Under the pieces are notes generated by a model, which was given only the letters and a program-made list of their open reading frames with translations, had not been told where the DNA came from and ran no database searches. Made by a program: the position numbers and the translations under genes. From NCBI RefSeq assembly GCF_015207505.1, contig NZ_JADEWT010000027.1:1-60742 (forward strand): 60,742 nucleotides of DNA, read 5' to 3'. Within the stretch, counting starts at the first letter, position 1, and each line of letters starts with the position of its first letter. Source of the stretch: Tychonema sp. LEGE 06208. GTDB lineage: Bacteria; Cyanobacteriota; Cyanobacteriia; Cyanobacteriales; Microcoleaceae. This document shows, piece by piece, positions 6,374 to 56,437 of the stretch.

Positions 6374-6446
6374 ATCAAATCCTCTCTTCATCGGAATAGT
6401 AAATTCACTGTTGACTGTTGACTGTTGACTGTTGACTGTTAACCGT
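6374..6446. repeat. Interspersed repeat and TTGACTG heptamer array
   Basis: The sequence 'atcaaatcctctcttcatcggaat' recurs at 19961 and partly at 29693-29780. It is followed by consecutive ttgactg heptamers (about 6410-6440), a short STRR-type tandem heptamer repeat as known from filamentous cyanobacteria. Confidence 0.75.
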
Positions 6447-13287: not shown

Positions 13288-16200
13288 ATGGGTAATACGA
13301 TCGATCCAAACAGAAACGTGCATCAGACTCAGCGAGGAACTCCATTCGCCGGCCAAAGCTGGTTAGTGGAAGAAAGAGATGCCTGCGGTGTGGGTTTTAT
13401 TGCCAACCAAAACGGTGCAGCTACTCACTCCTTAATTCAAAAAGCTCTGCCAGCCTTAACTTGTCTGGAACACCGCGGCGGTTGCAGCGCCGACTCTGAT
13501 TCCGGCGACGGTGCGGGTTTGATGACCGCGATTCCTTGGGAATTGCTGGATACTTGGTTTGCCGAACAGGGAATTGTGCCTCCCGCACGGGAAAACTGCG
13601 GCGTGGGAATGCTGTTTTTGTCTCAAGATAAATTTCAAGCGACTATAGCGCGGCAGGTGGTTGAGGAAATTTTGATGCAGCGCGGGCTGATACTTTTGGG
13701 ATGGCGCAAAGTTCCCATTGTACCCTCGGTTTTGGGCCCGCAAGCGCTAGAAAATCAGCCTCAAATCGAACAAGTAATTGTCAGTTCACCGGACTTAACC
13801 GGAGACGAACTCGATCGGCAGTTATTTTTGACCCGCCGCACGATCGGACACGCCCTATCAAATCGCCCCAACTTCACCCGCCGAGAATTTTATACTTGCT
13901 CTTTCTCTTGCCGCACGATCGTCTATAAAGGCATGGTGCGATCGGCTGTACTGGCAGAATTTTACCCAGACCTGAAAAATCCCGCTTATAAAAGCTCCTT
14001 CGCCGTCTATCACCGCCGCTTCAGCACCAACACCATGCCCCGCTGGCACCTCGCCCAACCCATGCGCTTGCTGGGACACAACGGCGAAATTAACACGCTC
14101 TTGGGCAATATTACCTGGATGAAGGCGCGACAAGCCAATTTATCTCACCCGAATTGGAGTCAAGCTGATATCGACACGTTTAACCCAATCGTCAATCCCG
14201 AAAGTAGCGATTCGGCCAACTTGGACAACGTGATGGAATTGTTGGTGCACTCCGGCCGTACCCCCCTAGAATCCCTGACAATTCTGGTGCCGGAAGCTTA
14301 CAAAAATCAGCCGGATTTGGCTCCCTATCCCGAAATTGTAGATTTTTACGAATATTACAGCGGCATTCAAGAACCTTGGGACGGCCCGGCCTTGCTGGTA
14401 TTCAGCGACGGCAAACAAGTAGGTGCTACGCTCGATCGCAACGGTTTGCGTCCGGCCCGCTACTGCATTACTAAAGACGGTTTGGTAATTGTCGCCTCCG
14501 AAGCCGGAGTTGTCGATATTCCCGAAGCAGATATTGTCGAAAAAGGCCGTTTGGGGCCAGGACAAATGATTGCAGTTGACCTGCAAACCCACGAAATTCT
14601 CAAAAATTGGCAGCTAAAACAGCGCATTGCTAAGCGCCACCCCTACGGCGAATGGCTGAAACAAAACCGCGAAACCTTGGAACCGCAGCCTTTTGCGGAA
14701 ACGGCAACCCTGGAACCGCAAACACTCTTAGCAACCCAAACTGCTTTTGGCTACACCGCCGAAGATTTGGATATGGTGATTGTGGAGATGGCGAGTTCTG
14801 GGAAGGAACCGACTTTCTGCATGGGCGATGACGCTCCTTTGGCCGTACTCTCAGAAAAGCCTCAGTTGCTGTACAACTATTTCAAACAGCGGTTCGCTCA
14901 AGTGACAAATCCGCCGATCGACCCCCTGCGCGAAGGGATGGTGATGTCACTCACAATGAATGTGGGCTTGCGGGGCAATTTATTGCAAACAATCCCGGAA
15001 AATGCCAAGCTGCTAAAAATTGATTCCCCGGTACTCAACGACGCTGAACTGTGTTTCTTGAAAGACCAACAGTCTTTCCCCGCGACAGAATTGTCCACTC
15101 TTTACAAAATCGCTGCAGGGCCCGGAGGTTTGAAAAATGCAGTGGAGCAACTTTGTCAAGAGGCGGCTGAAGCGGTGCGCGAGGGTTCGAGAATTCTGAT
15201 TTTGAGCGATCGAGCATCGAAGGAAAAAGGCGCATCTGCTGTGGGTGTGAGTGCTGAATGTACTTATATTCCGCCGTTGCTGGCAGTTGGTGCGGTTCAC
15301 CACCACTTAATTAGCGTTGGGCTGCGGATGCAAACTTCGCTAGTTGTCGATACCGCCCAATGTTGGAGCACTCACCACTTCGCTTGTTTGATGGGTTACG
15401 GTGCGGTGGCTATTTGCCCTTACTTGGCGTTGGAAAGCGTGCGCGGTTGGTGGTTTGACACCAAAACTCAAAACTTGATGCAGCACGGCAAAGTTCCCAA
15501 AATTACCGTCACTGAAGCTCAAGCTAGATACCGCACAGCGGTGGAAAATGGCTTGCTGAAGATTTTGTCGAAAATGGGGATTTCGCTGCTGTCTAGCTAT
15601 CAGGGGGCGCAAATCTTTGAGGCGATCGGCATTGGCGGTGATTTGCTCGATTTGGGCTTCAAAGGCACGGTTTCCCGCATCGGCGGTTTGAGTGTGGCGG
15701 AACTGGCTAACGAGGTGATGTCTTTCCACAGTCAGGCTTTCCCGGAATTGATTCTGAAAAAGCTGGAAAATTACGGCTTTGTGCAGTACCGCCGGGGCGG
15801 CGAATATCACATGAACAGCCCGGAAATGGCTAAGGCTTTGCACAGGGCTGTGACTACTTTTAAGGCTCAGACCAACAGTAATGGCAACGGGGCTGCCTCA
15901 AAAATGACACCAATTGGTGACAAAAATCCTGAAACTGCCACCGAAGCAAAAATGACACCAATTGGTGACAAAAATCCTGAAACTGCCACCGAAGCAAAAA
16001 TGACACCAATTGGTGACAAAAATGCCGAAGCAAAAATGACACCAATTGGTGACAAAAATCCTGAAACTGCCACCGAAGCAAAAATGACACCAATTGGTGA
16101 CAAAAATGCCGAAGCAAAAATGACACCAATTGGTGACAAAAATCCTGAAACTGCCACCGAAGCAAAAATGACACCAATTGGTGACAAAAATGCCGAAGCA

Positions 16201-18363
16201 AAAATGACACCAATTGGTGACAAAAATTCGGAAACTGCCACCGAAGCAAAAATGACACCAATTGGTGACAAAAATCCTGAAACCGCCTACGACCATTACG
16301 AGGTTTACAAGCAACAGCTAGAAAACCGCCCGGTAACGGCTTTGCGGGATTTGCTGGATTTTGTGAGCGATCGCCCTGCCATTCCCATTGAAGAAGTAGA
16401 ATCTGTAGCAGATATTGCCCGTCGCTTCGCCACCGGCGGAATGTCCCTCGGCGCTTTGTCCCCGGAAGCCCACGAAACACTGGCCATTGCGATGAACCGC
16501 ATCGGCGGCAAATCTAACTCCGGCGAAGGTGGCGAAGATCCGATTCGATACAATGTGCTGAACGATGTGAGCGCGGCGGGTTTCTCACAAACCCTACCTC
16601 ACTTAAAAGGTTTGCAAAACGGCGATACAGCCTGTTCGTCAATCAAACAGGTAGCTTCCGGGCGTTTCGGTGTAACTCCCGAGTACCTGATGAGCGCCCA
16701 ACAAATCGAAATTAAAGTCGCACAAGGTGCGAAACCGGGTGAAGGCGGTCAATTACCAGGGCCGAAAGTGAGCGAGTACATTGCCTATTTACGCCGATCA
16801 AAACCAGGTGTCACTTTGATTTCGCCTCCTCCTCACCACGACATTTATTCGATCGAGGATTTGGCGCAGTTAATTTTTGACTTGCACCAAATCAATCCAA
16901 AAGCTGGAGTTTCGGTGAAGTTGGTGTCGGAAGTCGGCATCGGGACTGTAGCCGCTGGTGTGGCGAAGGCAAATGCTGATGTGATTCAAATTTCCGGTCA
17001 CGATGGCGGTACCGGTGCGTCTCCACTTAGTTCGATCAAGCACGCGGGTTCTCCGTGGGAACTCGGTTTGACTGAAGTTCACCGGGTGTTGATGGAAAAC
17101 AAGTTGCGCGATCGAGTTTTGCTGCGGGTTGACGGTGGCTTTAAAACGGGCTGGGACGTGATTGTCGGCGCTTTGATGGGCGGCGAAGAGTACGGTTTCG
17201 GCACGGTGGCAATGATTGCTGAAGGCTGTATTATGGCTCGCGTTTGCCACATGAATAGTTGTCCCGTGGGCGTAACAACTCAACAGGAACATTTGCGGAA
17301 ACGGTTCCCTGGAACGCCGGAGCACGTGGTTAATTTCTTCTATTTCGTAGCACAAGAAGTGCGGAGTTTGTTGGCGAAATTAGGTTATAAGTCGATCGCA
17401 GATATTATCGGCCGCGCGGATTTGCTGACAATGCGCGAAGGGGTGCAACTAACTAAAACTCAAGCGATTAATTTGGATTGTTTGATGAAGTTACCGGATA
17501 CTAAGGGCGATCGATCTTTCTTGATTCACGGCGATGTACACACCAACGGGCCAGTGTTGGATGACGATTTGCTCGCGGATGCTGAAATTCAAAGCGCGAT
17601 CGCCAATCAAACCAGTGTTAGCAAGAGTGTAAAATTGGTGAATACCGATCGCACTGTGGGAGCACGTTTATCAGGTGCGATCGCCAAGCAATACGGTGAC
17701 ACCGGCTTTAGCGGTGAGATCGTCCTCAACTGCACGGGTAGCGCGGGCCAAAGCTTCGGCGCGTTCAATTTGCCGGGAATGACGCTGGTGCTGTCAGGCC
17801 AAGCTAACGACTATGTTGGTAAGGGGATGCACGGTGGCGAAATTGCGATCGCACCGCCGGCTGGTGCGACGTATGATGCTTCGGAAAATGCGATCGTCGG
17901 TAACACTTGTTTGTACGGCGCAACGGGGGGAACTCTGTTGGCTGCGGGTAAAGCGGGCGAACGGTTTGCGGTGCGTAACTCGATGGCGAAAGCAGTCATT
18001 GAGGGTGCCGGCGATCACTGCTGCGAGTACATGACTGGCGGCGTTATTGTCGTGTTAGGAAAAGTCGGCCGCAACGTCGGCGCTGGAATGACTGGCGGTT
18101 TGGGTTATTTCCTCGATGAAGATGGGACTTTCCCGGCTCACGTCAACGGGGAGATTGTGAAGATGCAGCGGGTTTCTACGGCTGCTGGGGAGGCGCAATT
18201 GAAGGAGTTGATTGAGATGCAGCGCGATCGAACCGGCAGCAAAAAAGCCGCGAAGATTCTCGCAAATTGGTCGGAATATTTACCTAAATTCTGGCAAGTT
18301 GTGCCGCCGAGTGAAGCAAATTCACCCGAAGCTTCGGAACAAAAGATTGCTGTGGAAGTGTAA
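13288..18363 (+). CDS. gltS: Ferredoxin-dependent glutamate synthase with repeat insert
   Basis: The enzyme makes two glutamates from glutamine and 2-oxoglutarate with electrons from reduced ferredoxin, the second step of GS-GOGAT ammonium assimilation. The class-II amidotransferase nucleophile is C33 ([11 protein letters not shown]), so the first 32 residues are a propeptide. The central domain and the FMN/2-oxoglutarate domain ([34 protein letters not shown]) follow. The [3Fe-4S] cysteines lie in [17 protein letters not shown]. The C-terminal beta-helix holds the Gly-rich GGLGYF region. Length is 1691 aa, about 130-150 longer than usual (~1530-1560). The excess is a tandem repeat of KMTPIGDKN units at residues 872-996, in the linker just before the FMN domain. 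No NADPH-binding small subunit gene is nearby, in line with ferredoxin dependence. Confidence 0.96.
15901..16287 (+). repeat. Coding minisatellite (9 x KMTPIGDKN) inside gltS
   Basis: Nine copies of a 27-bp core encoding KMTPIGDKN are joined by spacers PETATEA/SETATEA (48-bp units) or AEA (36-bp units), in the order 48-48-36-48-36-48-36-48 and a final partial unit. All units are multiples of 3, so the frame is kept. The core contains the 12-bp perfect palindrome CACCAATTGGTG. Units are nearly identical, which points to recent expansion or homogenisation. Confidence 0.95.
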
Positions 18364-24217: not shown

Positions 24218-24329
24218 CATTAAGTGCGATCGATGACCACAACAAAAACGGTTCGTAGTGCGGACTTTATTGATTGCATTCAATCCACCGGACATGATAT
24301 TATTAGGAGTTTGTCATTGAGAATCGGTT

Positions 24330-24451
24330 GACTAATGACTAATGACCAATGACTAATGACCAATGACCAATGACCAATGACCAATGACCAATGACCAATA
24401 ACCAATAACCAATAACCAATAACCAATAACCAATAACTAATAACTAATGAC
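24330..24451. repeat. STRR heptamer array (TGACCAA/TAACCAA type)
   Basis: About 17 consecutive heptamers alternating TGACTAA, TGACCAA and TAACCAA. The array overlaps the last codons of the minus-strand kinase gene: its TAG stop (24444-24446) and the final Ser-His codons lie in the repeat. Confidence 0.88.
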
Positions 24452-26594
24452 TAATCTCAACTTGTGCCTTTAATTTAACAGTAAAAGTAGAGCCGACATC
24501 CAACTGACTATCAAGACTAATATCGCCGCCCATCATCTGACAAAACAAGCGGCTAATCGTCAATCCCAAACCGGTGCCGCCGTACTTGCGAGTAGTCGAA
24601 GCATCGCCTTGCACAAAAGGTTGAAACAAACTCTGCTGCTGCCCGACCGACATTCCAATGCCGGTATCAGATACCTGTAAATAAACCCAATTGCTGCCGC
24701 CTGCTGGTTCCCTAGTCGCGCTCAGCAGCACCGTCCCGCCTTCGGTAAACTTCAAGGCATTCGAGAGCAAATTGAAGAGAATTTGCCGGACTTTAGTTAA
24801 ATCTGCGTACATAATTCCCAAATTCGGAGAGTAAGAAACCTGCAATTGATTGTGATTTTTTTCCACTAAAGGGTGCAAAGTTGCAACGACTTCTTCTATT
24901 AAATTGCCGATATCAAATTCTTCTAAATAAAGCTCCATCCGACCTGCTTCTATCTTAGACAGATCGAGAATGTCGTTGATTAAAGTCAGCAAGTGTTTGC
25001 CTGCGTTACGAATTTTTTGGGTATCGGGAATGATGTTTTTTAGTCCTGATTCGAGTGCTTCTTCTTGTAGCATTTCGCTGTAACCGATAATGGCGTTGAG
25101 CGGTGTTCGCAACTCGTGGCTCATATTGGCTAAAAAAGTGCTTTTAGCTCTGGAAGCTGCTTCAGCTTTGTGTAAGGCTTCTTGCAAGGCTATTTCGGCT
25201 CTTTTGCGCTCGGCAATTTCGATGCGGAGCAGTTTGTTGGCGGCGGTGAGTTGAGCGGTGCGCTGATCGACGGTCATTTCTAGCTGGGCTTTGGCTTTGG
25301 AAAGTGCTTCCTGAGCGCGCTGGCGTTCAAATCCTTCGATCGCCAGCGCGACCAAATTTGCTAAAGAATCGGCGAAGGTGCGTTCCTCCAGAGCCCACTG
25401 GCGGGGCGCGCCGTGTTCCAAGGAGAGGATGCCTACGATCTGACCGCCGAGCCTGATTGCTACATTTAATATAGATGAGTTTGGTTTGTTGGGATTCGGT
25501 AGCGCGGGGGAGTGTTGGGCTACCGGAGATGAGTGGCACAAATTTGTGGCGATCGAGTTTGAAGTGTTGGGCGCAGTTTTTAATGCTTTGTCCTCAGCTA
25601 AGTTTTCGCCCGGTGTGTCGCCTTCGACATCATCTAAGATTGATGAAAGTTGTAAATCGCTTGTCGCCGATAGGGGCTGGCGGCTCAAATGATTCTCGCT
25701 GGTGCGATCGTACAGGTCGAGACAAACTAATCTGAGGTTGGAGATTTTAAATTTAGAATGATTGACCAAATCTGGGTTTTCTTCTCGGGCGGCGGTTTCT
25801 GGATCGAGTGATTCTGTTTGGCTGCGGGCGATCGCTCGGTTGATAAAATTTAGCTGGGGTTCGATCGAATAGCGACTGCCAAATCTGAGATGGTTGTAAA
25901 GCCAGACGCTGACTTTTTCCACCTCCAAAGTACGGGCTGCAGCCTCGGTAATTTCGCGAATTCCCACATTCAGCGCACCGCTGTTGAAAGTCCTCTGCCG
26001 GCCTAGCTGCAACAAAGCCAGACTCTGGCGGCGGAGACGCTTTTCGCTCTCTTTGAGGGTTTGTTCTGCTTCCTTGCGCTGGGTGAGGTCGTACAAGGCG
26101 CACAATGCTGTCTGTTGACCGTTAAACAGCAGGGACTCAACGGAGATTGTGGCCCAGAAGGGAGTACCGTCTGACTTTTTGCAGTGGAGTTCGTAGTTTT
26201 GGAGGTATCCGTTTTTGGCGAGGGCTTCTAGTACCTTTGGGCGATCGTCCGGGTTTAAATAAAAGTCTGGGGTGCTGCAGCCGATCAATTTTTCTAGGGG
26301 TATGTTCAGCAGAGAAGCCAGTTGAGAATTCGCATACATAATTAAGCCGTCACCGAGGCGAGAAACCAATACCGGAACGGGAGTTGCTGAGGCGATCGCC
26401 CGAAACTGCTCTTCGCTCGATCGCAGCGCCACATCAGCTTTAGAGAGCAAGTGAGCGTCCATCGTGTCCGAATGTTCGGTAGTAGTCTCCAGCAAAATTT
26501 CTAGGTCAGCTTTTTCGCGCTTCAAGTTTTCAAGTTCCGCACTCAGCCGCTGAACGTCCAAAAGTAGCTGTTCTCTCGATGGTTCTTCCTGCAT
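24444..26594 (-). CDS. Soluble PAS-GAF histidine kinase
   Basis: The start is taken at the ATG 26594 (MQEEPSREQLLLDVQRLSAEL, 716 aa); the TTG four codons earlier lacks support. An N-terminal coiled coil (~1-55) is followed by a PAS/PAC domain (FRAIASATPVPVLVSRLGDGLIMYANSQLASLLNIPLEKLIG). A GAF-like domain is split by a low-complexity Ser/Pro/Asn-rich insert (DVEGDTPGENLAEDKALK...NPNKPNSS). A second coiled coil precedes HisKA with H493 (FLANMSHELRTPLNAIIGYSEML), then HATPase with NLLSNALKFT, DTGIGM and GGTGLGLTISRLF. No transmembrane segment or receiver is present, so it is a cytosolic sensor of unknown signal. The C-terminus VEISH plus stop lies in a heptamer array. Confidence 0.92.
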   Translation of the reverse strand: MQEEPSREQLLLDVQRLSAELENLKREKADLEILLETTTEHSDTMDAHLLSKADVALRSSEEQFRAIASATPVPVLVSRLGDGLIMYANSQLASLLNIPLEKLIGCSTPDFYLNPDDRPKVLEALAKNGYLQNYELHCKKSDGTPFWATISVESLLFNGQQTALCALYDLTQRKEAEQTLKESEKRLRRQSLALLQLGRQRTFNSGALNVGIREITEAAARTLEVEKVSVWLYNHLRFGSRYSIEPQLNFINRAIARSQTESLDPETAAREENPDLVNHSKFKISNLRLVCLDLYDRTSENHLSRQPLSATSDLQLSSILDDVEGDTPGENLAEDKALKTAPNTSNSIATNLCHSSPVAQHSPALPNPNKPNSSILNVAIRLGGQIVGILSLEHGAPRQWALEERTFADSLANLVALAIEGFERQRAQEALSKAKAQLEMTVDQRTAQLTAANKLLRIEIAERKRAEIALQEALHKAEAASRAKSTFLANMSHELRTPLNAIIGYSEMLQEEALESGLKNIIPDTQKIRNAGKHLLTLINDILDLSKIEAGRMELYLEEFDIGNLIEEVVATLHPLVEKNHNQLQVSYSPNLGIMYADLTKVRQILFNLLSNALKFTEGGTVLLSATREPAGGSNWVYLQVSDTGIGMSVGQQQSLFQPFVQGDASTTRKYGGTGLGLTISRLFCQMMGGDISLDSQLDVGSTFTVKLKAQVEISH

Positions 26595-40646: not shown

Positions 40647-40979
40647 TTAGTCAGTAGTCAGTAGTCAGTAGTCAGTAGTCAGTAGTCAGTAGTCAGTAGT
40701 CAGTAGTCATTAGTCATTAGTCAGTAGTCAGTAGTCAGTAGTCAGTAGTCAGTAGTCATTAGTCAGTAGTCAGTAGTCAGTAGTCATTAGTCAGTAGTCA
40801 TTAGTCATTAGTCAGTAGTCAGTAGTCAGTAGTCAGTAGTCAGTAGTCAGTAGTCAGTAGTCATTAGTCAGTAGTCAGTAGTCAGTAGTCATTAGTCATT
40901 AGTCATTAGTCATTAGTCAGTAGTCAGTAGTCAGTAGTCAGTAGTCAGTAGTCAGTAGTCATTAGTCAGTAGTCATTAG
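40647..40979. repeat. 333-bp STRR heptamer array (TAGTCAG/TAGTCAT)
   Basis: About 47 head-to-tail heptamers, mostly TAGTCAG with interspersed TAGTCAT, starting on the base after the smtB stop codon. The order of the two variants looks irregular. This is a long example of the short tandemly repeated repetitive sequences of filamentous cyanobacteria. It is not a CRISPR: the unit is 7 bp with no spacers. Confidence 0.95.
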
Positions 40980-42860: not shown

Positions 42861-45800
42861 ATGTTTAAAAGCAAATTATCCAAAGTTATCGTAGTGCTGT
42901 TGCGGCGGATTGCTGGTGTTACCAGATCCGGGGCGAAACGGCTGATGAGAGCAATGCTGCAAGCCCTCATGGCTATGAGCCGCCGGGCAAAACTGCCGGT
43001 GGCTGGTTTTGTGTTGCCGACGGTGACGATGGTGTTGCTGGTAGTGATCTTGTTGACGGTGGCGATTACTCTGCGATCGTTCGATCGGGCAAATACGGCC
43101 CGTAACGTGCGCGTGAACCAGCAGGTGCTGGCGGCCGCGACTCCCGCGATCGATCGGGCAAAAGCCAAAATTGAATATATGCTGCTGGAAGACCCGCAAA
43201 GGCCGACGGCAACCCCATCCGATGATGAAATGTACCGGATTATGTCGTCGGCTTCTGGGCAGGATCTTTATACATTCGGGGGTGAAGAGCGACTGACAGT
43301 TAAGTACGATCTCGACGGGAATGGTACACCCGCTCCCTTTGACCCTGCGAACCTAAATGCCCTCACAGACGAACAGATCAATACTGCTTGGAGATATCGC
43401 GTCGATACCGATAAAGACGGCATAGAGGATACTTATACAATCTACGGGATATTCTTTCGCTCTCCAACACGTGACCGTGACAACAATTTCACAAGAGCGA
43501 GAAAGCCGTTAGAAGCAAGAACACCTCCAATGTCGATCGGCTCGCTCAAAAAAGGGTGCGAGGCGGCGGCTGGTACTAGCGCTAGTTTGGTCGGAGACTC
43601 TGGTTGGTACAAAATAGATGGCAGGCTCAAAAAAAGCTTTTTTGTTTACACGGTCAATGTGCCGATAGCGGGACAATTCAAAGGCACTCCCAGCGTTTCC
43701 GCTCTAGAATACCAGCAAGACCAAAGCCGCATTCCCCTTAGCAATAATGCGGTGGTGTATGAAGATGATTTGGAAATATCTCCCGGCCCCTCGTTAAATC
43801 TCAACGGGCGGATGATGACAAATAGTAATCTGGTCGTGACGGTTACTAGGTCATCAGGAGAAAAATTAGAGTTATATCAAGTTAGCAGCAAAGATTCCTG
43901 TTTCTACGAAGAAGAAAACAGCAAAATAATTGTTGGCGGCAATGTAGTTAACGGGTGGTCGGGAAGTAATGACTTAAAAGTTCCTGTCCAAGTACACCTG
44001 TTCAAAAAAGGTGATAGTTCAGATTATCCAAAAATAAACCTAACCATTAGTGACCAGAATCGATCTACAAGCAATAACCCTTTAGACGTAATCTATAACA
44101 ACCAAGCTTTCGCCGATCGCATCGCGGCATTAGTAAGTGAACGGATCGGACCAGTCGGGAGTGAAACCAGTCCCCTTACCGATCCAATTTCAGTCCAAAA
44201 CGCCCAACTAACAATCGCAGGCTCTCCCGGACAAACACGGAAACAAGCGCTGGAAGAGTATTTTAAGCTGAGAACTAGGAAAGTTCCCTTTGCTGAAATA
44301 AAAATTGATGAGAAGGGAACTAAAGGCGAGACTACGACTTTGGAGGTTAATTCAGGGGAGGGTCTACGACCCCTAACTAAATGGGCCAAGCCAGAAGATG
44401 CCACAACCAAGTTAAGTCTCAAAGACACTCAACTAGAAGCAAAAAACCCTGAGCCTCCACCTGAAGAAGAAACATACATCGGCGATCGAGTAGTGGCGGG
44501 TAACAACTTGCCTTCCCTACTTTGGGACAACACCAAAAACCAATTTGTCAGCGCGTCGCAACCATTAGGAAAGTGGACTGATACCAATACTATTGCCCGC
44601 ACACGATCGTCCCAGGTGACTAAGTTCTCTGACGTCGGGGCCACAGACCGCAACGGTTTTTGGGAAAAAGCATCAGCCCAAATACCTAAAACTCCCCTTG
44701 ACGGTATAGGTGGTCTGCGGATAATTACCAGTGCAGGAGTGTACGATCGCACAACTTCTTTTCTGCCACCGCCTAGCTGGATAAAGAGTGATGGTACTCG
44801 GGTAAGCGGACCCGCAAAGATCGGCGATCCGTTGACTTCCAGCAATACTTACGACGACCCAGAAACTACGGGGGCGGGGGCTGTAGAGCAATACCCCGTC
44901 GTCTGGCCGGACTCCATGCCGATGTCACCGCTGGGACCGGGATCGAAAGTATATGACAATGTTGCAGGCAAATGGATTAACTGGCGAACAGCGACAATGC
45001 CTAGTGTTCCACCCGAAGTAGTCGCAGACGAAAACGGTAATGGGCTAACACCGGCAGCAACTCCGTCAGCCATTGACCCCAGCACGCCCCAGTTTGCCAA
45101 AGGCGATTTGCGGATGCGAGCATCGGCAGTTTATCACTATGCAAACAGCGGCTACAAGCAAGGTGACACTCCTAAACAAACCCCATTTGCCTGCGTCAGC
45201 AGTTACTACGACCCCAGTACGGCACTGACAGCGAGAAATATAACTGCAGTGGCTGATGTCAGTGGAGATCTAGCACTTCCTGCAGCAACCCGCCCTACAA
45301 GTACAAAAATCGGCTCTCACAACGGCATAGTTTACAACTTCCCAGGACGACCAACGCTTGCAGGACCTCTCCCAGTCACTAACGGCTTGTTGACCGGTGG
45401 CGACCCAATTTATACCGCGCAAGCCAACTACGTCTTCCCTGACGGTAGGTTTGCCAACAAGCCTTTGAGAGAGGCGCTGCTAAAAGCTGAAGCCGATCGC
45501 AATTTGGCGCACTTAGCAGCGATCGACTCTACGGCTTGCGCTTTGAATATTTTGAAGACGCCTGGTGCTAGCACTGCAATTCCTGCTGGGGCTATTCAAG
45601 AAGTAGCATTTTTGAATGGTAGAGAAATCAAGGCAATAGACGCGGACAATACCACCACAACGGTAAATGAAGAGTTTACGCTCAGCAGTCCCTTGCCTGT
45701 TACTACTCCACCCACTGCCCCCGCTGCAATATTGAGAGGGAATTACAACCTGCCGCTCGAAGAACGGCAGCCCCTAGAAGTTCGAGCAACCCAGTTGAAT

Positions 45801-47771
45801 ATACAGGCTCTGCGGCAGAAAGAATTTACTGGAACTAACGGGCCAGCGCCGGCAAAAGAGTATTTACTGCCAAACAGCGGGATTATTTATGCCAGTCGGG
45901 ATGACGCGCTGCCCGATCGAAGTGCTCGAAGTGCTGATGAAAATAGCGATAAATTAGTCAGTCCCACAGATTCTCTGCTCGACCCCACCCGCAAGCCCAA
46001 CGGAATTTTACTCATCAACGGTCAATCGCTATTCCGCGACATAGCAGGCCCGGTAAGGCCAACTACTGTGGCAGACGTGGTTAGGGAAAAAGGTCTGACT
46101 TTGGTATCAAATTTGCCAGTTTATATCAAAGGAGAATTTAACAAACACAACCAACAAGAGTTCAAAAACGACACGATACCACTAGATTGGAGTAAGTTTT
46201 ACTCAAAAAATAATGAGCGTGGCGCTCTCAATCCTAATTTTGCTTGTCGTGCAGGCGACCCCAGACTTAAGGATTGTACCACTGGTGATAATTGGCGTCC
46301 CGCCACGGTACTAGCAGATGCTATAACCCTGCTCTCAAAAGACTACCGCTTTGGCTTCCGCAACGAAGGGGATTTTGATCTCAGAAATAATGCGGGCGCT
46401 GCTGCTGTAAAACCTAGGAGAGAACAAGGTTTTTATCACAACAATTTTGTTACTAACGGTCTCACTAGCGGAGCATTCTTAAGTGACGGCAAATTGTTCT
46501 CTGGTACGGGTACAGCACTCATAGATTCTGCCTATGCAACTCCCCAGTTGAATAGTTCTTACTTCAACAACTTTGTCACCCCTGTTCAACGGCGCGGAAA
46601 TTTCCCAGAGTATTTGATGGAAACTTGCATAAAACTGCCGGTTTCTGAATGTACCGAGGCCGACTGGTTCGTCGATCCGTTTACGCCGGTCTCCGCCACA
46701 CAGACAGGGCGAAAAGTTTCTGATGTAATTGGCTCGACACCCACATACAATCCAACTACCCGTTCAAGTACCTATAAAGCTGGCACAACAGCCGATCCTC
46801 CGATTCCAGAATTACAGCGATTCCCCCGTCGCGTTGCATTCCCAAGAACTGCTGGCAATTTGGATGGAGGGGAAACTCCACGACCTTACGGCATTGATGG
46901 CACAACAGTCAGTTCTACTACTCCTGCGACATCAAAAGCTAATTCTCTGTGGTTCGCCACAACAGCAACAGCAACTGATACTTCTGTAAATTACGATAAG
47001 GATCGATTACCGTTTGTGGTCAACAGAAATTTGAAGGAGTGGAATGGTAAAGATTTGCCAGCTTTATTAGCAACTGCCACCTACCAGCCGCTGCTGATGC
47101 CAGTCTTACAGCTCCAAACGGTGGGACCGGCGATAGGCAAGCCAGATCTACCCGATGGTGGTACGGTAGTCAAAAAAACTGGGTGGCTACCGAGAGCTGA
47201 ATCGACAAGTTTCCATCTGATCGTAGGATCGGGGGACAGTCCTTCCCGAGCTCTGGATGCTGCTAATACCACCGGTGAGTCCAACGGTGGTCTACAAAAT
47301 TTGCCCCGCTTTTTGGAAAGCTGGCAAATCGATGATAAGGATAGTTCAACCGACATCAAGGGTTCTTTTGTCCAACTAAATCGTAGCGCCTACAGCACGG
47401 CTCCTTATCAGCCAATTCTGCCGACGACACCACTAAAAAGTTTGTTTGAGCGACCAACGACTCCACCAATTGCTTACACCGCTCCCGACAAAACATATAG
47501 AACTGATAATGTAGGAGGTCGCGTTCCCTATTTATTCCCACCACAACGGGATTGGGGTTTCGATGTAGGCTTGCTATCTCAGCCACCTGACTTGTTTAGC
47601 CAAAGATTTACCACTCCTCCCAAACAGACTCAGCCAAATGAGTATTTCCGGGAAGTAGGTCGCGATGACGAGTGGGTAAAAACTTTGATGTGTGCTGAAG
47701 TTGCATCCCCCCCTAGTACCAAGGCTGTAGATCCTCCTTTCAGACCAACTGATTGTCCTTTTCCCGCCTGA
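42861..47771 (+). CDS. hpsA: Hormogonium polysaccharide secretion pseudopilin HpsA
   Basis: A very large pseudopilin-like protein (1636 aa). The basic N-terminus (MFKSKLSKVIVVLLRRIAGV...RRAKLPVAGF) precedes a hydrophobic helix VLPTVTMVLLVVILLTVAITLRSFDRANTARNVRVNQQVLAAATPAIDRAKAKIEYML, the characteristic HpsA signature in which the helix is type-IV-pilin-like. The remaining ~1,500 residues are an extracytoplasmic beta-rich, Pro/Thr/Asn-rich region without recognisable catalytic motif. It has a few cysteine pairs and Ca-loop-like DADGDG-type stretches (DTDKDGIED). In Nostoc punctiforme HpsA is needed for hormogonium polysaccharide export and gliding. It leads an apparent operon with hpsB and hpsC (gaps of 32 and 65 bp). 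Confidence 0.92.
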   Translation: MFKSKLSKVIVVLLRRIAGVTRSGAKRLMRAMLQALMAMSRRAKLPVAGFVLPTVTMVLLVVILLTVAITLRSFDRANTARNVRVNQQVLAAATPAIDRAKAKIEYMLLEDPQRPTATPSDDEMYRIMSSASGQDLYTFGGEERLTVKYDLDGNGTPAPFDPANLNALTDEQINTAWRYRVDTDKDGIEDTYTIYGIFFRSPTRDRDNNFTRARKPLEARTPPMSIGSLKKGCEAAAGTSASLVGDSGWYKIDGRLKKSFFVYTVNVPIAGQFKGTPSVSALEYQQDQSRIPLSNNAVVYEDDLEISPGPSLNLNGRMMTNSNLVVTVTRSSGEKLELYQVSSKDSCFYEEENSKIIVGGNVVNGWSGSNDLKVPVQVHLFKKGDSSDYPKINLTISDQNRSTSNNPLDVIYNNQAFADRIAALVSERIGPVGSETSPLTDPISVQNAQLTIAGSPGQTRKQALEEYFKLRTRKVPFAEIKIDEKGTKGETTTLEVNSGEGLRPLTKWAKPEDATTKLSLKDTQLEAKNPEPPPEEETYIGDRVVAGNNLPSLLWDNTKNQFVSASQPLGKWTDTNTIARTRSSQVTKFSDVGATDRNGFWEKASAQIPKTPLDGIGGLRIITSAGVYDRTTSFLPPPSWIKSDGTRVSGPAKIGDPLTSSNTYDDPETTGAGAVEQYPVVWPDSMPMSPLGPGSKVYDNVAGKWINWRTATMPSVPPEVVADENGNGLTPAATPSAIDPSTPQFAKGDLRMRASAVYHYANSGYKQGDTPKQTPFACVSSYYDPSTALTARNITAVADVSGDLALPAATRPTSTKIGSHNGIVYNFPGRPTLAGPLPVTNGLLTGGDPIYTAQANYVFPDGRFANKPLREALLKAEADRNLAHLAAIDSTACALNILKTPGASTAIPAGAIQEVAFLNGREIKAIDADNTTTTVNEEFTLSSPLPVTTPPTAPAAILRGNYNLPLEERQPLEVRATQLNIQALRQKEFTGTNGPAPAKEYLLPNSGIIYASRDDALPDRSARSADENSDKLVSPTDSLLDPTRKPNGILLINGQSLFRDIAGPVRPTTVADVVREKGLTLVSNLPVYIKGEFNKHNQQEFKNDTIPLDWSKFYSKNNERGALNPNFACRAGDPRLKDCTTGDNWRPATVLADAITLLSKDYRFGFRNEGDFDLRNNAGAAAVKPRREQGFYHNNFVTNGLTSGAFLSDGKLFSGTGTALIDSAYATPQLNSSYFNNFVTPVQRRGNFPEYLMETCIKLPVSECTEADWFVDPFTPVSATQTGRKVSDVIGSTPTYNPTTRSSTYKAGTTADPPIPELQRFPRRVAFPRTAGNLDGGETPRPYGIDGTTVSSTTPATSKANSLWFATTATATDTSVNYDKDRLPFVVNRNLKEWNGKDLPALLATATYQPLLMPVLQLQTVGPAIGKPDLPDGGTVVKKTGWLPRAESTSFHLIVGSGDSPSRALDAANTTGESNGGLQNLPRFLESWQIDDKDSSTDIKGSFVQLNRSAYSTAPYQPILPTTPLKSLFERPTTPPIAYTAPDKTYRTDNVGGRVPYLFPPQRDWGFDVGLLSQPPDLFSQRFTTPPKQTQPNEYFREVGRDDEWVKTLMCAEVASPPSTKAVDPPFRPTDCPFPA

Positions 47772-52415: not shown

Positions 52416-54298
52416 TTACCCACAGTCAGGAGACGGCAGTACCGTGTCCCTACAAATGGGGCGATCGATCATTTTGTGGTAGGGAAACGGCATTGCCGTG
52501 TCCTCCATCGCCCCACCGGGCGATCGTTATATTCGATCGCCCGATCGATTTTACCCATTACCCAAAATCAGGAGACGGCAGTGCCGTGTCCGTACAAATT
52601 GGGTGATAGTTACATTCCATCGGGCGATCTATGATTGTGAGGTAGGGAAACGGCATTGCCGTGTCCTCCATCGCCCCATCGGGCGATCGTTATATTCGAT
52701 CGGGCGATCGGGCAATTCGATCATCCAATCCGGTTAATTTCACCCATTACCCAAAATCAGGAGACGGCAGTGCCGTGTCCCTACAAATGGGGCGATAGTT
52801 ACATTCCATCGGGCGATCGATCATTTTGGGGTAGGGAAACGGCATTGCCGTGTCCTCCATCGCCCCACCGGGCGATCGTTATATTCGATGGGGCGATCGA
52901 TTTTACCCATTACCCAAAATCAGGAGACGGCAGTGCCGTGTCCCTACAAATGGGGCGATAGTTACATTCCATCGGGCGATCGATCATTTTGGGGTAGGGA
53001 AACGGCATTGCCGTGTCCTCCATCGCCCCACCGGGCGATCGTTATATTCGATGGGGCGATCGATTTTACCCATTACCCAAAATCAGGAGACGGCAGTGCC
53101 GTGTCCCTACAAATGGGGCGATAGTTACATTCCATCGGGCGATCGATCATTTTGGGGTAGGGAAACGGCATTGCCGTGTCCTCCATCGCCCCACCGGGCG
53201 ATCGTTATATTCGATGGGGCGATCGATTTTACCCATTACCCAAAATCAGGAGACGGCAGTGCCGTGTCCCTACAAATTGGGTGATAGTTACATTCCATCG
53301 GGCGATCAATAATTGTGGGGTAGGGAAACGGCATTGCCGTGTCCTCCATCGCCCCACCGGGCGATCGTTATATTCGATGGGGCGATCGGGCAATTCGATC
53401 GGGCGATCGGGTTAATTTCACCCATTACCCAAAATCAGGAGACGGCAGTGCCGTGTCCCTACAAATTGGGTGATAGTTACATTCCATCGGGCGATCGATC
53501 ATTTTGGGGTAGGGAAACGGCATTGCCGTGTCCTCCATCGCCCCACCGGGCGATCGTTATATTCGATCGGGCAATTCGATCGGGCGATCGGGTTAATTTC
53601 ACCCATTACCCAAAATCAGGAGACGGCAGTGCCGTGTCCCTACAAATTGGGTGATAGTTACATTCCATCGGGCGATCGATCATTTTGTGGTAGGGAAACG
53701 GCATTGCCGTGTCCTCCATCGCCCCATCGGGCGATCGTTATATTTGATCGCCAGATCGATTTTACCCATTACCCAAAATCAGGAGACGGCAGTGCCGTGT
53801 CCCTACAAATTGGGTGATAGTTACATTCCATCGGGCGATCGATCATTTTGGGGTAGGGAAACGGCATTGCCGTGTCCTCCATCGCCCCATCGGGCGATCG
53901 TTATATTCGATCGCCCGATCGATTTTACCCATTACCCAAAATCAGGAGACGGCAGTGCCGTGTCCCTACAAATTGGGTGATAGTTACATTCCATCGGGCG
54001 ATCGATCATTTTGTGGTAGGGAAACGGCATTGCCGTGTCCTCCATCGCCCCACCGGGCGATGGTTATATTCGATCGGGCGATCGATTTTACCCATTACCC
54101 AAAATCAGGAGACGGCAGTGCCGTGTCCCTACAAATTGGGTGATAGTTACATTCCATCGGGTACGATTTTACCCGTTACCCGAAATCAGGACACGGCGCC
54201 GTGCCGTTTCCCTACAAATTGGGTGATGGTTACATTCGATCGCGCAATCAATTATTACCCGTTACCCGAAATCAGGACACGGCACTGCCGTTTCCCTA
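52416..54298. repeat. 1.9-kb array of ~163-bp tandem repeats with inverted GCCGT hairpins
   Basis: About 11 full units plus two degenerate ones. The anchor 'caggagacggcagtgccgtg' recurs near 52425, 52570, 52760, 52922, 53085, 53248, 53438, 53620, 53783, 53946 and 54109, most intervals being 163 bp (some longer by ~20-28 bp). Each unit has two imperfectly inverted hairpins (acggcagtgccgt and acggcattgccgt), a 'tccctac/gtaggga' pair, and several GGGCGATCG (HIP1-like) sites. Because 163 is not a multiple of 3, all three frames drift. There is no sign of codon conservation, so the short open frames here are artefacts. The array ends on the ftsI stop codon. Confidence 0.95.
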
Positions 54299-56173
54299 CT
54301 TAGTCGGCGCAATCTTCTCAATATTAATCAGCGCCTCCATCACCGACTCCACAATCGGCGCCGCCACCACACCCCCCGAACCGCCCTTGGGCTCATCAAT
54401 CACCGCCAGCACCACATACTTAGGAGCTTCCACAGGCATGATCCCCACAAAGCTAGTAATAATCGCCTTGTGAGAATAACCCCCCCCAGCATTAGCTTTT
54501 TGAGCCGTGCCCGTTTTCCCAGCAATCCGATAGCCGGGAATTTGTGCAGCTTTCCCCGTACCGCCATCCACCACAGTTTCCATCATTTCCAAAACCTGCT
54601 TAGTCGTTTCCGGCGAAAACACTTGCTTCGGAACAGCCCTCGGAAGCTTCCAAAAAGCTTGACCGTCGCGATCGAAAAGTCCCCGCACAACATGAGGAGT
54701 TACCAACTTACCACCGTTGGCCAAAGCTCCGTTAAGCTGCACCAACTGTATCGGAGTAATCGAAAAACCCTGACCAAAAGCAGTAGTAGCAACTTCCACC
54801 GGAGAATTAATAAATTGCTCTCGATTTTTAAGCTGACTCGTTACTTCAAAAGGCAAATCACTTCCTGCAGTTTGTCCCAGTCCAAGTTTTTCTAAAGCTT
54901 GATAGTAAAGAGAAGGTTTCATGCTTCTCATTACGTGCACCATCCCCACATTACTCGAATGTTTCAAAATATCTGTCACCGTAGAACGCCCGCGAGCGCC
55001 TGCTTGTTGGTAATCGGAATTTTGGATAGTCCAGCCATCAATATAAATCCGACCTTCGTCGTTAAATACAGTGTTAGGTTTGACCGCACCAGCTTCTAGG
55101 GCGATCGCCACATTAATCGCTTTAAAAGTCGAACCAGGCTCGTAAACATCAGTTACAGCCCAATTTTTATAGCGCGACAAATCGAAATTAAAATATTGAT
55201 TTGGGTCATAGGTAGGTTCCGCTACCATTGACAACAATTCCCCGTTGCGGGCATCCATCACAATCACCGCCCCCCGCTTCGCCCCGTATTCCTTCATTTT
55301 GTCCTTGAGAGCAATCCGCGCCGCCCGCTGCAAGCGACTGTCGATCGTCAGTTGCAACTTCAAATCATCTAGCTGCACAAAACCAGCCGTCAGCCGATCG
55401 GGCACCCAATGTCCGTCGATCGACTTGCTAAATTGAATCGACGGCATCGATCGTTCCAGCAAATTCTGCTGACTGTACTCTACCCCAGCTTGTCCCTTCC
55501 GTTCCCCATCCACATAACCCAAAACATCCGCCGCCAACTCCTGCTGCGGGTAAAAACGCTGCTGCTGTCGCACCAACTCCAGCCCATCCACGGGAGTATG
55601 TTTAATTTGCATCCGCCCCACGCGATCGGCCACCTCTTGAGCCAGAGAATCGGCAATTGTAATACCCGTTTCGCCCAGATTAAACCGGCGCAGCAGTTCA
55701 GTTTCCGGCGTATTGCCCGGATTTCGTTCGATCGGCAGCATCGGAGCCAAGGTAGCGGCAACTTCAGCCTTTGTATGGTTGAACAGCTTCGGGTGAGCGT
55801 AGAGCGTGTACACCTGTCTGTCGATCGCCAAAACATTGCCCGCGCCGTCAACAATCGGGCGTCTCGGCACAAACGGCTTAGACTTGAGAGTTTGCTGCTG
55901 CTCGGCCTGTTTCCGCAGCGCCGGAGCCCGCGTCACCTGCAAATAAAACAAATTCACAGCCAACCCCAGCCCCCCCAGCATCAACACCGCCCACACAGCC
56001 CACAAGCGAAACTTGCTGCGTTTTAAACGCTCTAGGGGTGGCCGAGGCTGCCTGCTAGCAGTAGCAGAAACTCTAGGTTTGGCTGGTTGGCCCCACCAAG
56101 TGCCATCCCTCGACGCTTTTGGACGTTTAAAGTTCGGCGATCTGTAGCGGTCAAAACGGGGATCGTAGCTCAT
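54296..56173 (-). CDS. ftsI: Peptidoglycan transpeptidase FtsI (class B PBP, PBP3-like)
   Basis: 625 aa. A cytoplasmic tail and one transmembrane helix (LWAVWAVLMLGGLGLAVNLFYLQV) are followed by the pedestal domain (IVDGAGNVLAIDRQVYTLYAHP) and the transpeptidase domain. Active-site motifs: SxxK in EPGSTFKAI, SxN in HSSNVGMV, and KTGT in RIAGKTGTAQK. It cross-links septal peptidoglycan in the divisome together with FtsW. The stop codon TAG (54296-54298) is part of the last 'ccctac' of the tandem repeat array, and its start codon (56171-56173) touches a MITE-like end that supplies GAAAGG as Shine-Dalgarno. The gene is therefore bounded by repeats on both sides. It lies 264 bp downstream of the FtsL-like gene. 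Confidence 0.95.
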   Translation of the reverse strand: MSYDPRFDRYRSPNFKRPKASRDGTWWGQPAKPRVSATASRQPRPPLERLKRSKFRLWAVWAVLMLGGLGLAVNLFYLQVTRAPALRKQAEQQQTLKSKPFVPRRPIVDGAGNVLAIDRQVYTLYAHPKLFNHTKAEVAATLAPMLPIERNPGNTPETELLRRFNLGETGITIADSLAQEVADRVGRMQIKHTPVDGLELVRQQQRFYPQQELAADVLGYVDGERKGQAGVEYSQQNLLERSMPSIQFSKSIDGHWVPDRLTAGFVQLDDLKLQLTIDSRLQRAARIALKDKMKEYGAKRGAVIVMDARNGELLSMVAEPTYDPNQYFNFDLSRYKNWAVTDVYEPGSTFKAINVAIALEAGAVKPNTVFNDEGRIYIDGWTIQNSDYQQAGARGRSTVTDILKHSSNVGMVHVMRSMKPSLYYQALEKLGLGQTAGSDLPFEVTSQLKNREQFINSPVEVATTAFGQGFSITPIQLVQLNGALANGGKLVTPHVVRGLFDRDGQAFWKLPRAVPKQVFSPETTKQVLEMMETVVDGGTGKAAQIPGYRIAGKTGTAQKANAGGGYSHKAIITSFVGIMPVEAPKYVVLAVIDEPKGGSGGVVAAPIVESVMEALINIEKIAPTK

Positions 56174-56231
56174 ATAGCCTTTCTCAAAAAGGTGAGGAGT
56201 TGAGATTTTAGATTTTAGATTTTAGATTTTA
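56173..56231. repeat. MITE-like end with ATTTTAG heptamer run
   Basis: tatagcctttctcaaaaaggtgagg is nearly identical to the left end of the element at 24050-24127, and is followed by five 'attttag' heptamers. A matching right end is not clear. It adjoins the ftsI start codon. Confidence 0.62.
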
Positions 56232-56437
56232 GATTCTTCCACTTCACGAGGGAACAAGTTTGAGTAAAAAGCATTTTTTATTATAGTGCGAGCTTCCCCG
56301 CTCGCGTATTGTACTCGATCGGGGGAAGACGCTCATAGGAGAGCTCGAACTAGAAACCTGTTTTCTGGAAACGTTGCTATTGTGCTGTTTCAGGGGTGCT
56401 TCCTTTAACCGACACATCTGCAATGCCAAGATCGACC

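Follow-up and report, generated by a model that had tools for sequence, protein, structure and literature searches.

A palindromic coding element tandemly repeated in the ferredoxin-dependent glutamate synthase of Tychonema sp. LEGE 06208 and its probable relation to a gene beside tal

Introduction

How does a central enzyme come to carry nine copies of one nonapeptide just ahead of its FMN domain? This question is raised by the ferredoxin-dependent glutamate synthase (Fd-GOGAT, gene gltS) encoded in a stretch of 60,742 nucleotides of Tychonema sp. LEGE 06208 (contig NZ_JADEWT010000027.1), hereafter called the window. An earlier note on this DNA had described the repeat and had suggested that its copy number changed recently, that a palindromic interspersed repeat seeded it and that it may affect channelling in the enzyme. 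We compared the repeat and its palindromic element across 29 genomes of a Microcoleus-type genus in all, in which G000 denotes the genome of the window and the other G numbers its relatives. We consider it probable, at roughly 0.72, that a palindromic segment related to that of a gene adjacent to tal was inserted in frame into a tolerant linker of Fd-GOGAT and then amplified in G000 by slippage, probably without function.

Results

The gltS gene (13288..18363, + strand) encodes a protein of 1691 residues in which GATase_2, Glu_syn_central, Glu_synthase and GXGXG (Pfam) follow one another in this order, as in the Fd-GOGAT class. Synechocystis 1llw was its best match in the Protein Data Bank (PDB), and Microcoleus records were its closest named relatives. 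The array (15901..16287, + strand) corresponds to residues 872-1000 and lies in the linker that joins the central domain (Glu_syn_central, residues 483-782) to the FMN part (Glu_synthase, from residue 999), and the open reading frame (ORF) continues through all of it. The repeated core is 27 bp long (AAAATGACACCAATTGGTGACAAAAAT), contains the palindrome CACCAATTGGTG and encodes KMTPIGDKN. Nine identical copies were found, although G000 is a draft assembly of 6.5 Mb in 232 contigs and the exact copy number is thus not certain. They lie on the + strand at 15901..15927, 15949..15975, 15997..16023, 16033..16059, 16081..16107, 16117..16143, 16165..16191, 16201..16227 and 16249..16275, with core-to-core spacings of 48, 48, 36, 48, 36, 48, 36 and 48 bp. 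Three of the eight spacers measure 9 bp (after copies 3, 5 and 7) and five measure 21 bp, including a variant that starts with TCG and follows copy 8 (TCGGAAACTGCCACCGAAGCA). Copy 1 is preceded by GGGGCTGCCTCA, the same as in the single-copy relative G028, and copy 9 is followed by CCTGAAACCGCC (PETA) and then by the conserved YDHYEVYK. Tandem Repeats Finder gave a concordant array. The exact palindrome CACCAATTGGTG occurs nine times in the window against a mean of 0.01 expected, and none of 100 shuffles reached nine. The linker measures 435 bp in G000; in G016, a relative whose site is empty, it measures 51 bp, which is 128 residues less. The earlier description, namely nine cores with two spacer types, placed just ahead of the FMN domain, adding some 125-130 residues in units of 36 or 48 bp that keep the frame, was therefore accurate. 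Among the forward frames of this element type in G000, one of three is stop-free, and it is the frame in use. On the - strand, the repeat holds open a 206-aa antisense ORF spanning the array (15860-16480), which is probably not a gene.

The linker was readable in 25 of the 29 genomes, with G003, G009, G015 and G027 left out, and ranged from 17 to 145 residues. The palindromic element was present in 16 of the 25 (in altered form in G020 and G022) and absent from the other nine. The site was empty in G016, G019 and G023, and in G004 it was empty save for a GAAGGAA-type insert. Linkers of G002, G012 and G018 carried a GAAGGAA-type insert together with a GCG..GGGGACG..CGC hairpin, those of G007 and G008 a hairpin GCGAGCGGGGACGCTCGC, and those of G025 and G026 the repeat CCCTTCGACTACGCTCAGG, which occurs 0 to 321 times per genome versus 0 in the reversed control. 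More than one copy of the element was seen in G000 and G024 only. In G024, the copies follow at a spacing of 36 bp, two of them complete and a third interrupted where the contig ends. By gltS, the genome closest to G000 is G021 (95% DNA identity over the gene, SH-aLRT 100), whose single copy differs in its arms. The comparison of gltS copy number among relatives, which the earlier note had proposed as a check, thus found nine copies in G000 alone and upheld its view that the number changed recently. On the gltS tree, the minimum number of changes was 7 for presence of the element, 9 for the GAAGGAA insert and 9 for the arm types. Outside the genus set, a pattern search gave 48 to 61 residues for the comparable stretch in other cyanobacteria versus 61 to 189 in Microcoleus, counted without a number of loci that the pattern missed.

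The arms of the gltS element were compared over eight distinct elements in an ungapped alignment with seven arm pairs. Standard pairs filled 91.1% of cells, and four pairs had changed on both sides. The covariation score was 0.429 against a shuffled mean of 0.085 and was reached by 0 of 500 shuffles; with a slid partner, it dropped to 0.000-0.158. When translated, the arm changes read TPIGD, RPMGL, TPMGV, EPIGS, RPIGL and SPIGD, so that residues 3, 5 and 7 of the nonapeptide vary along with the palindrome arms and the unit does not behave as a conserved protein repeat. Because the arms change together between species and alter the protein on both sides, it is the DNA palindrome, and not the peptide, that is maintained.

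A strict pattern of the element matched 63 times in 20 of the 29 genomes and never in the reversed control. All 63 matches sit at three regions, the gltS linker, the 3' side of tal and dnaJ-tusA, which were assigned by comparing contig and position and not by reading every match. A fourth, related copy lies within the ORF adjoining tal. A looser pattern searched genome-wide added few sites; because in many genomes the reversed control matched about as often, these extra sites were treated as noise and wide dispersal was rejected. The sequence TGAGCGCAATTGCGCTCA was found in 19 of 29 genomes, mostly near tal and dnaJ-tusA, apart from two unassigned places in G003. For a heptamer-like GAAGGAAGAAGG pattern, the reversed control carries no information, since reversing the pattern gives almost the same repeat. 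In G000, the element forms arrays of 92 bp x 3.9 at tal and of 73 bp at dnaJ-tusA, and its gltS and tal copies are identical over 31 of 31 bases; gltS and tal elements are also of the same type in G001 and G028. The suggestion of a palindromic interspersed repeat as the seed, and the genome-wide palindrome search proposed along with it, therefore succeeded in part: the genome does contain the exact 31-mer again, at tal, but the element is not widely dispersed, being confined to three regions and the related ORF copy.

The tal array is located between tal and a 277-aa ORF, directly upstream of the latter. Its unit matches the ORF over 48 columns with a 3' flank identical at 23 of 32 positions, and none of 10000 shuffles was as good. 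Like results came from the tal unit and the ORF of relatives, with 23/30 positions in agreement in G016, 21/30 in G028 and 16/30 in G026 (p 0.0007). Given this match and the flank identity, the unit of the tal array is a decayed copy of part of the adjoining ORF, its palindrome-bearing segment. As a separate observation, ORFs of the IS605 OrfB (TnpB) type were seen in palindrome-rich regions, 3' of tal in G014, G021 and G008 and at dnaJ-tusA in G014 (L259). Both G014 ORFs are assigned by Pfam, that of G008 has the HTH_OrfB_IS605 domain only and that of G021 is assigned by likeness alone.

Within the 277-aa ORF, the palindrome is part of the coding sequence, between ENL and a KIPTKENQVRPL stretch. 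All 20 genomes in which this site was covered have one there (18 with a complete ORF, G022 with a broken one and G008 with a fragment), and seven types occur among them. Pairing held in 98.2% of cells, and the covariation score was 0.571 versus 0.124, reached by 0 of 500 shuffles. At the equivalent position, more distant paralogues in the genus carry GTGCGCCATGGCGCAC (four loci) or GGAACC-AAT-GGTTCC (one locus). The region before the palindrome can be read as a predicted helix-turn-helix (HTH); the ORF protein had no Pfam or PHROGs match above the cut-off. The loci of this HTH-type family are L263-L281, L282, L284-L289 and L290-L307. In L289 (G004), the domain is fused behind what we take to be a helicase and an ASCH-like domain.

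The ORF domain matched 98 plasmid records, including 30 from Nostoc and 19 from Streptomyces, and no phage record; an IMG/VR scan for the family gave 17 pattern matches, 0 of which were confirmed. A plasmid of Oscillatoria nigro-viridis PCC 7112 matches a stretch of the genus member G011 with full identity. Among 18 plasmid homologues examined, 15 had a perfect palindrome at the fixed place, in 14 distinct sequences that mostly differ from those of the genus ORF. Its arms measure 8 to 15 bp and its loop 0 to 3, and in all 15 it was the longest palindrome of the ORF. In 12 of these 15 genes, none of 30 codon-shuffled controls per gene reached the palindrome. It was also duplicated in frame: L292 has three copies that follow every 30 bp and differ by at most two mismatches, and L305 and L306 have two copies each at 39 bp. 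Extra copies with up to three mismatches were sought around 22 loci. In plasmids, they occurred only inside the gene (L292, L305, L306 and one 3-mismatch match in L302), and L277 and L278 each had one further copy on the tal side; general upstream operator sites were rejected.

Agreement between loci was measured as the number of genomes with identical 16-mer arms at two loci, with p by permutation. The arms agreed between ORF and tal in 9/18 genomes (0/5000 permutations), between ORF and dnaJ/tusA in 10/19 (p 0.0018), between gltS and tal in 6/10 genomes having both (p 0.0008) and between dnaJ/tusA and tal in 7/19 (p 0.011). This agreement within genomes points to copying or to a recognising factor shared by the loci, and it favours tal over the ORF as partner of the gltS element.

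Internal length variation among 24 aligned genus proteins was found only near residue 644 and at 858-999. The first of these is a second length-variable loop of Fd-GOGAT (15214..15264, + strand; about residues 643-659), which is short in G000. Its variable stretch ranges from 3 to 67 residues across the 24 proteins. In relatives it takes up the repeats KEEGRRKKEEGR and SSATDFVADVADV, and PEPFDYAQDK in G026; repeat families in this loop also occur in the main linker.

Elsewhere in the window, Tandem Repeats Finder reported the heptamer arrays ACTGTTG x4.9 (6407-6440), TGACCAA x18 (24329-24455), TAGTCAG x47 (40648-40979) and AGATTTT x4.7 (56203-56235). Numerous copies of a repeat of about 163 bp, which contains palindromes such as GACGGCAGTGCCGTGTCC, occupy 52548-54299 and extend to the 3' end of a gene for a penicillin-binding protein. 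A 1636-aa ORF at 42861-47771 had no Pfam match at E 1e-8.

Discussion

The array is best explained as the in-frame tandem amplification of one palindromic insert, judging from the comparison of linkers. The linker is hypervariable and open to several repeat families, and many species have one 30-bp palindromic element in it. Covariation of the arms in DNA, not in protein, shows that palindromy is kept or restored, and restoration could proceed by template switching between the arms or by renewal through copying from another locus. As the element is common to gltS and the tal array, and the tal array is homologous to the palindrome segment of the ORF, the Fd-GOGAT insert may derive from the tal/ORF segment or its copies. 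Its retention would be due to the one open frame and to a linker that can accommodate additional residues. Slippage at the hairpin may then have raised the copy number to nine in G000, and the repeat peptide would be a disordered spacer with little or no function. The 48-bp unit can be resolved into a 9-bp upstream flank, the 27-bp core and a 12-bp downstream flank, as tandem duplication of the single-copy state would yield; the 36-bp unit, the only kind in G024, would be the 48-bp unit minus its downstream flank.

Several points weigh against this origin. The element was gained or lost at least seven times on the gltS tree, and its history is not simple. In G000, the copies at gltS and tal end in GTGAC versus GTGTC at the ORF and dnaJ-tusA. 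Arms at the ORF and gltS agreed in 1/11 genomes (p 0.48), which leaves direct transfer from the ORF without support, and those at dnaJ/tusA and gltS in 3/12 (p 0.015). All agreement tests ignore phylogeny; for G016, G026 and G028 the first matches were entered by hand as the ORF palindromes, and the stretch covered on the 3' side of tal was its first 330 bases. An imperfect GACACC/GTGAC type indicates that palindromy is not always perfect, and the number of ORF pairs changed on both sides was matched by 81/500 shuffles. The plasmid homologues come from 18 of the 98 matching records; 3 of the 18 have no palindrome (L295, L299, L307), and codon shuffles reached the palindrome in L290 (1/30), L291 (2/30) and L303 (2/30). 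An AlphaFold model of residues 470-1200 from 19 sequences was poor (mean pLDDT 48, pTM 0.46), and the scores of 22-29 without secondary structure that it gives the array are too weakly founded to carry weight.

The palindromes might instead be sites of a DNA-binding protein, perhaps the HTH-type ORF product, which co-evolve with that protein, in which case the gltS array would be a cluster of sites. Binding sites in or near partition genes are known (parS, sopC), and both the arm agreement of ORF-tal, ORF-dnaJ/tusA and gltS-tal and the position of the tal arrays directly upstream of the ORF would fit. Copying, however, accounts for the agreement equally well and the agreement hardly extends to the ORF-gltS pair. 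No extra copy was found in about 600 bp upstream of the 15 palindrome-bearing plasmid homologues, and no Pfam or PHROGs family confirms DNA binding. We consider such sites an unlikely explanation of the array.

Another explanation is that the gltS palindrome arose and persists independently through template switching between its arms, with the likeness to tal due to convergence on an A-rich ACCAATTGGT-type palindrome. Many arm types exist, and template switching homogenises the arms of inverted repeats in yeast coding DNA (PMC8604942). Yet the 31 bases identical at gltS and tal in G000 include the same single mismatch (A opposite A), and the type is shared by these loci in G001 and G028, which makes convergence distinctly improbable.

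The frame intact through nine copies and the position at a domain boundary could also point to selection on the protein, with the repeat as a long spacer or a binding segment by which Fd-GOGAT is tuned through domain movement, channelling or partner docking. An open frame without stops is required anyway in an essential enzyme, 17 to 66 residues and inserts of a quite different kind suffice in relatives, and single-copy species alter the peptide on both sides to keep the DNA palindrome. We found no evidence for the effect on channelling that the earlier note had raised, and linkers vary severalfold in length across the genus; selection on the peptide is very unlikely. That the array or its copy number is an assembly artefact is the least credible, since two spacer types and one variant spacer give the array internal order, tandem copies recur in a second species (G024) and genomes of one to six contigs (G011, G018, G020) hold other inserts or a single copy there, even though G000 is a short-read style draft, the G024 contig stops inside its array, the G027 contig starts just after the linker and tal arrays end contigs in G006.

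Beyond the in-frame entry and slippage that we favour for gltS, we tentatively propose, at less than even odds, a broader history. A gene family of cyanobacterial plasmids and chromosomes and of a Streptomyces plasmid would have a built-in coding palindrome at a fixed place, after a predicted HTH and before PTNERQxRPL, whose arms are rewritten yet stay self-complementary and which duplicates in frame. Copies of it would have settled in the leader of the gene itself, at dnaJ-tusA and in the linker of Fd-GOGAT. What is inherited would then be the palindrome, as a site that the encoded protein itself recognises or as a tiny mobile hairpin whose home is this gene, and the Fd-GOGAT array would be an amplified off-site copy.

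Within one genus, a DNA-level palindrome has added more than 120 residues to a central enzyme, and the empty, the single-copy and the nine-copy state can be compared directly. Arms that are translated and still covary make it testable whether mutation alone or selection lets palindromes spread and remain perfect, and whether such inserts cost an essential enzyme anything.

Comparison with known systems

No report of the Fd-GOGAT array or of the palindrome-bearing gene family was found in the open-access literature, and open-access papers offered no parallel to a fixed-place coding palindrome with sequence turnover in an HTH-type family; the gene family is the newer lead of the two. Repetitive extragenic palindromic (REP) repeats of the GTAG/CGTC families are short palindromes, sometimes within ORFs and also in cyanobacteria (PMC3733652). 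In contrast to these, the Fd-GOGAT element, by inspection, has no GTAG/CGTC end tag and ends in AAAAATG / CAAAAAT, and it occupies few loci versus hundreds of REP copies (PMC3733652). In Nematomorpha mitochondria, coding palindromes are under double constraint (PMC6649704). Template switching resembles the present case in that inverted repeats stay perfect while several residues change (PMC8604942); however, it was inferred for yeast genes and RNA hairpins, whereas here one element type was traced over a bacterial genus at several loci. PARCELs are tandem in-frame repeats of coding DNA with dyad symmetry and varied palindromes, and the Fd-GOGAT array is likewise a tandem palindromic coding repeat (PMC2996958). 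PARCELs, however, have amphipathic repeats of 25 residues, lie in ORFs to which no function is assigned and are in many cases membrane-targeted, whereas the array has units of 12 or 16 residues in a soluble housekeeping enzyme (PMC2996958).

Rickettsia palindromic elements are inserted in frame in housekeeping ORFs, at the same place in orthologues and in exposed regions; they are 100-150 bp long and frequent in the genome, and insertion hot spots for several types have been discussed (PMC3767692). Like them, the Fd-GOGAT element is an in-frame palindrome in an ORF, with the site empty in some relatives (G004, G016, G019 and G023) and filled in others. Unlike them, it has a core of 27 bp and an insert of 30 bp, occurs at three or four loci, is tandemly amplified and is cyanobacterial. 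On this comparison, the Fd-GOGAT element works like the Rickettsia palindromic elements but is not one of them.

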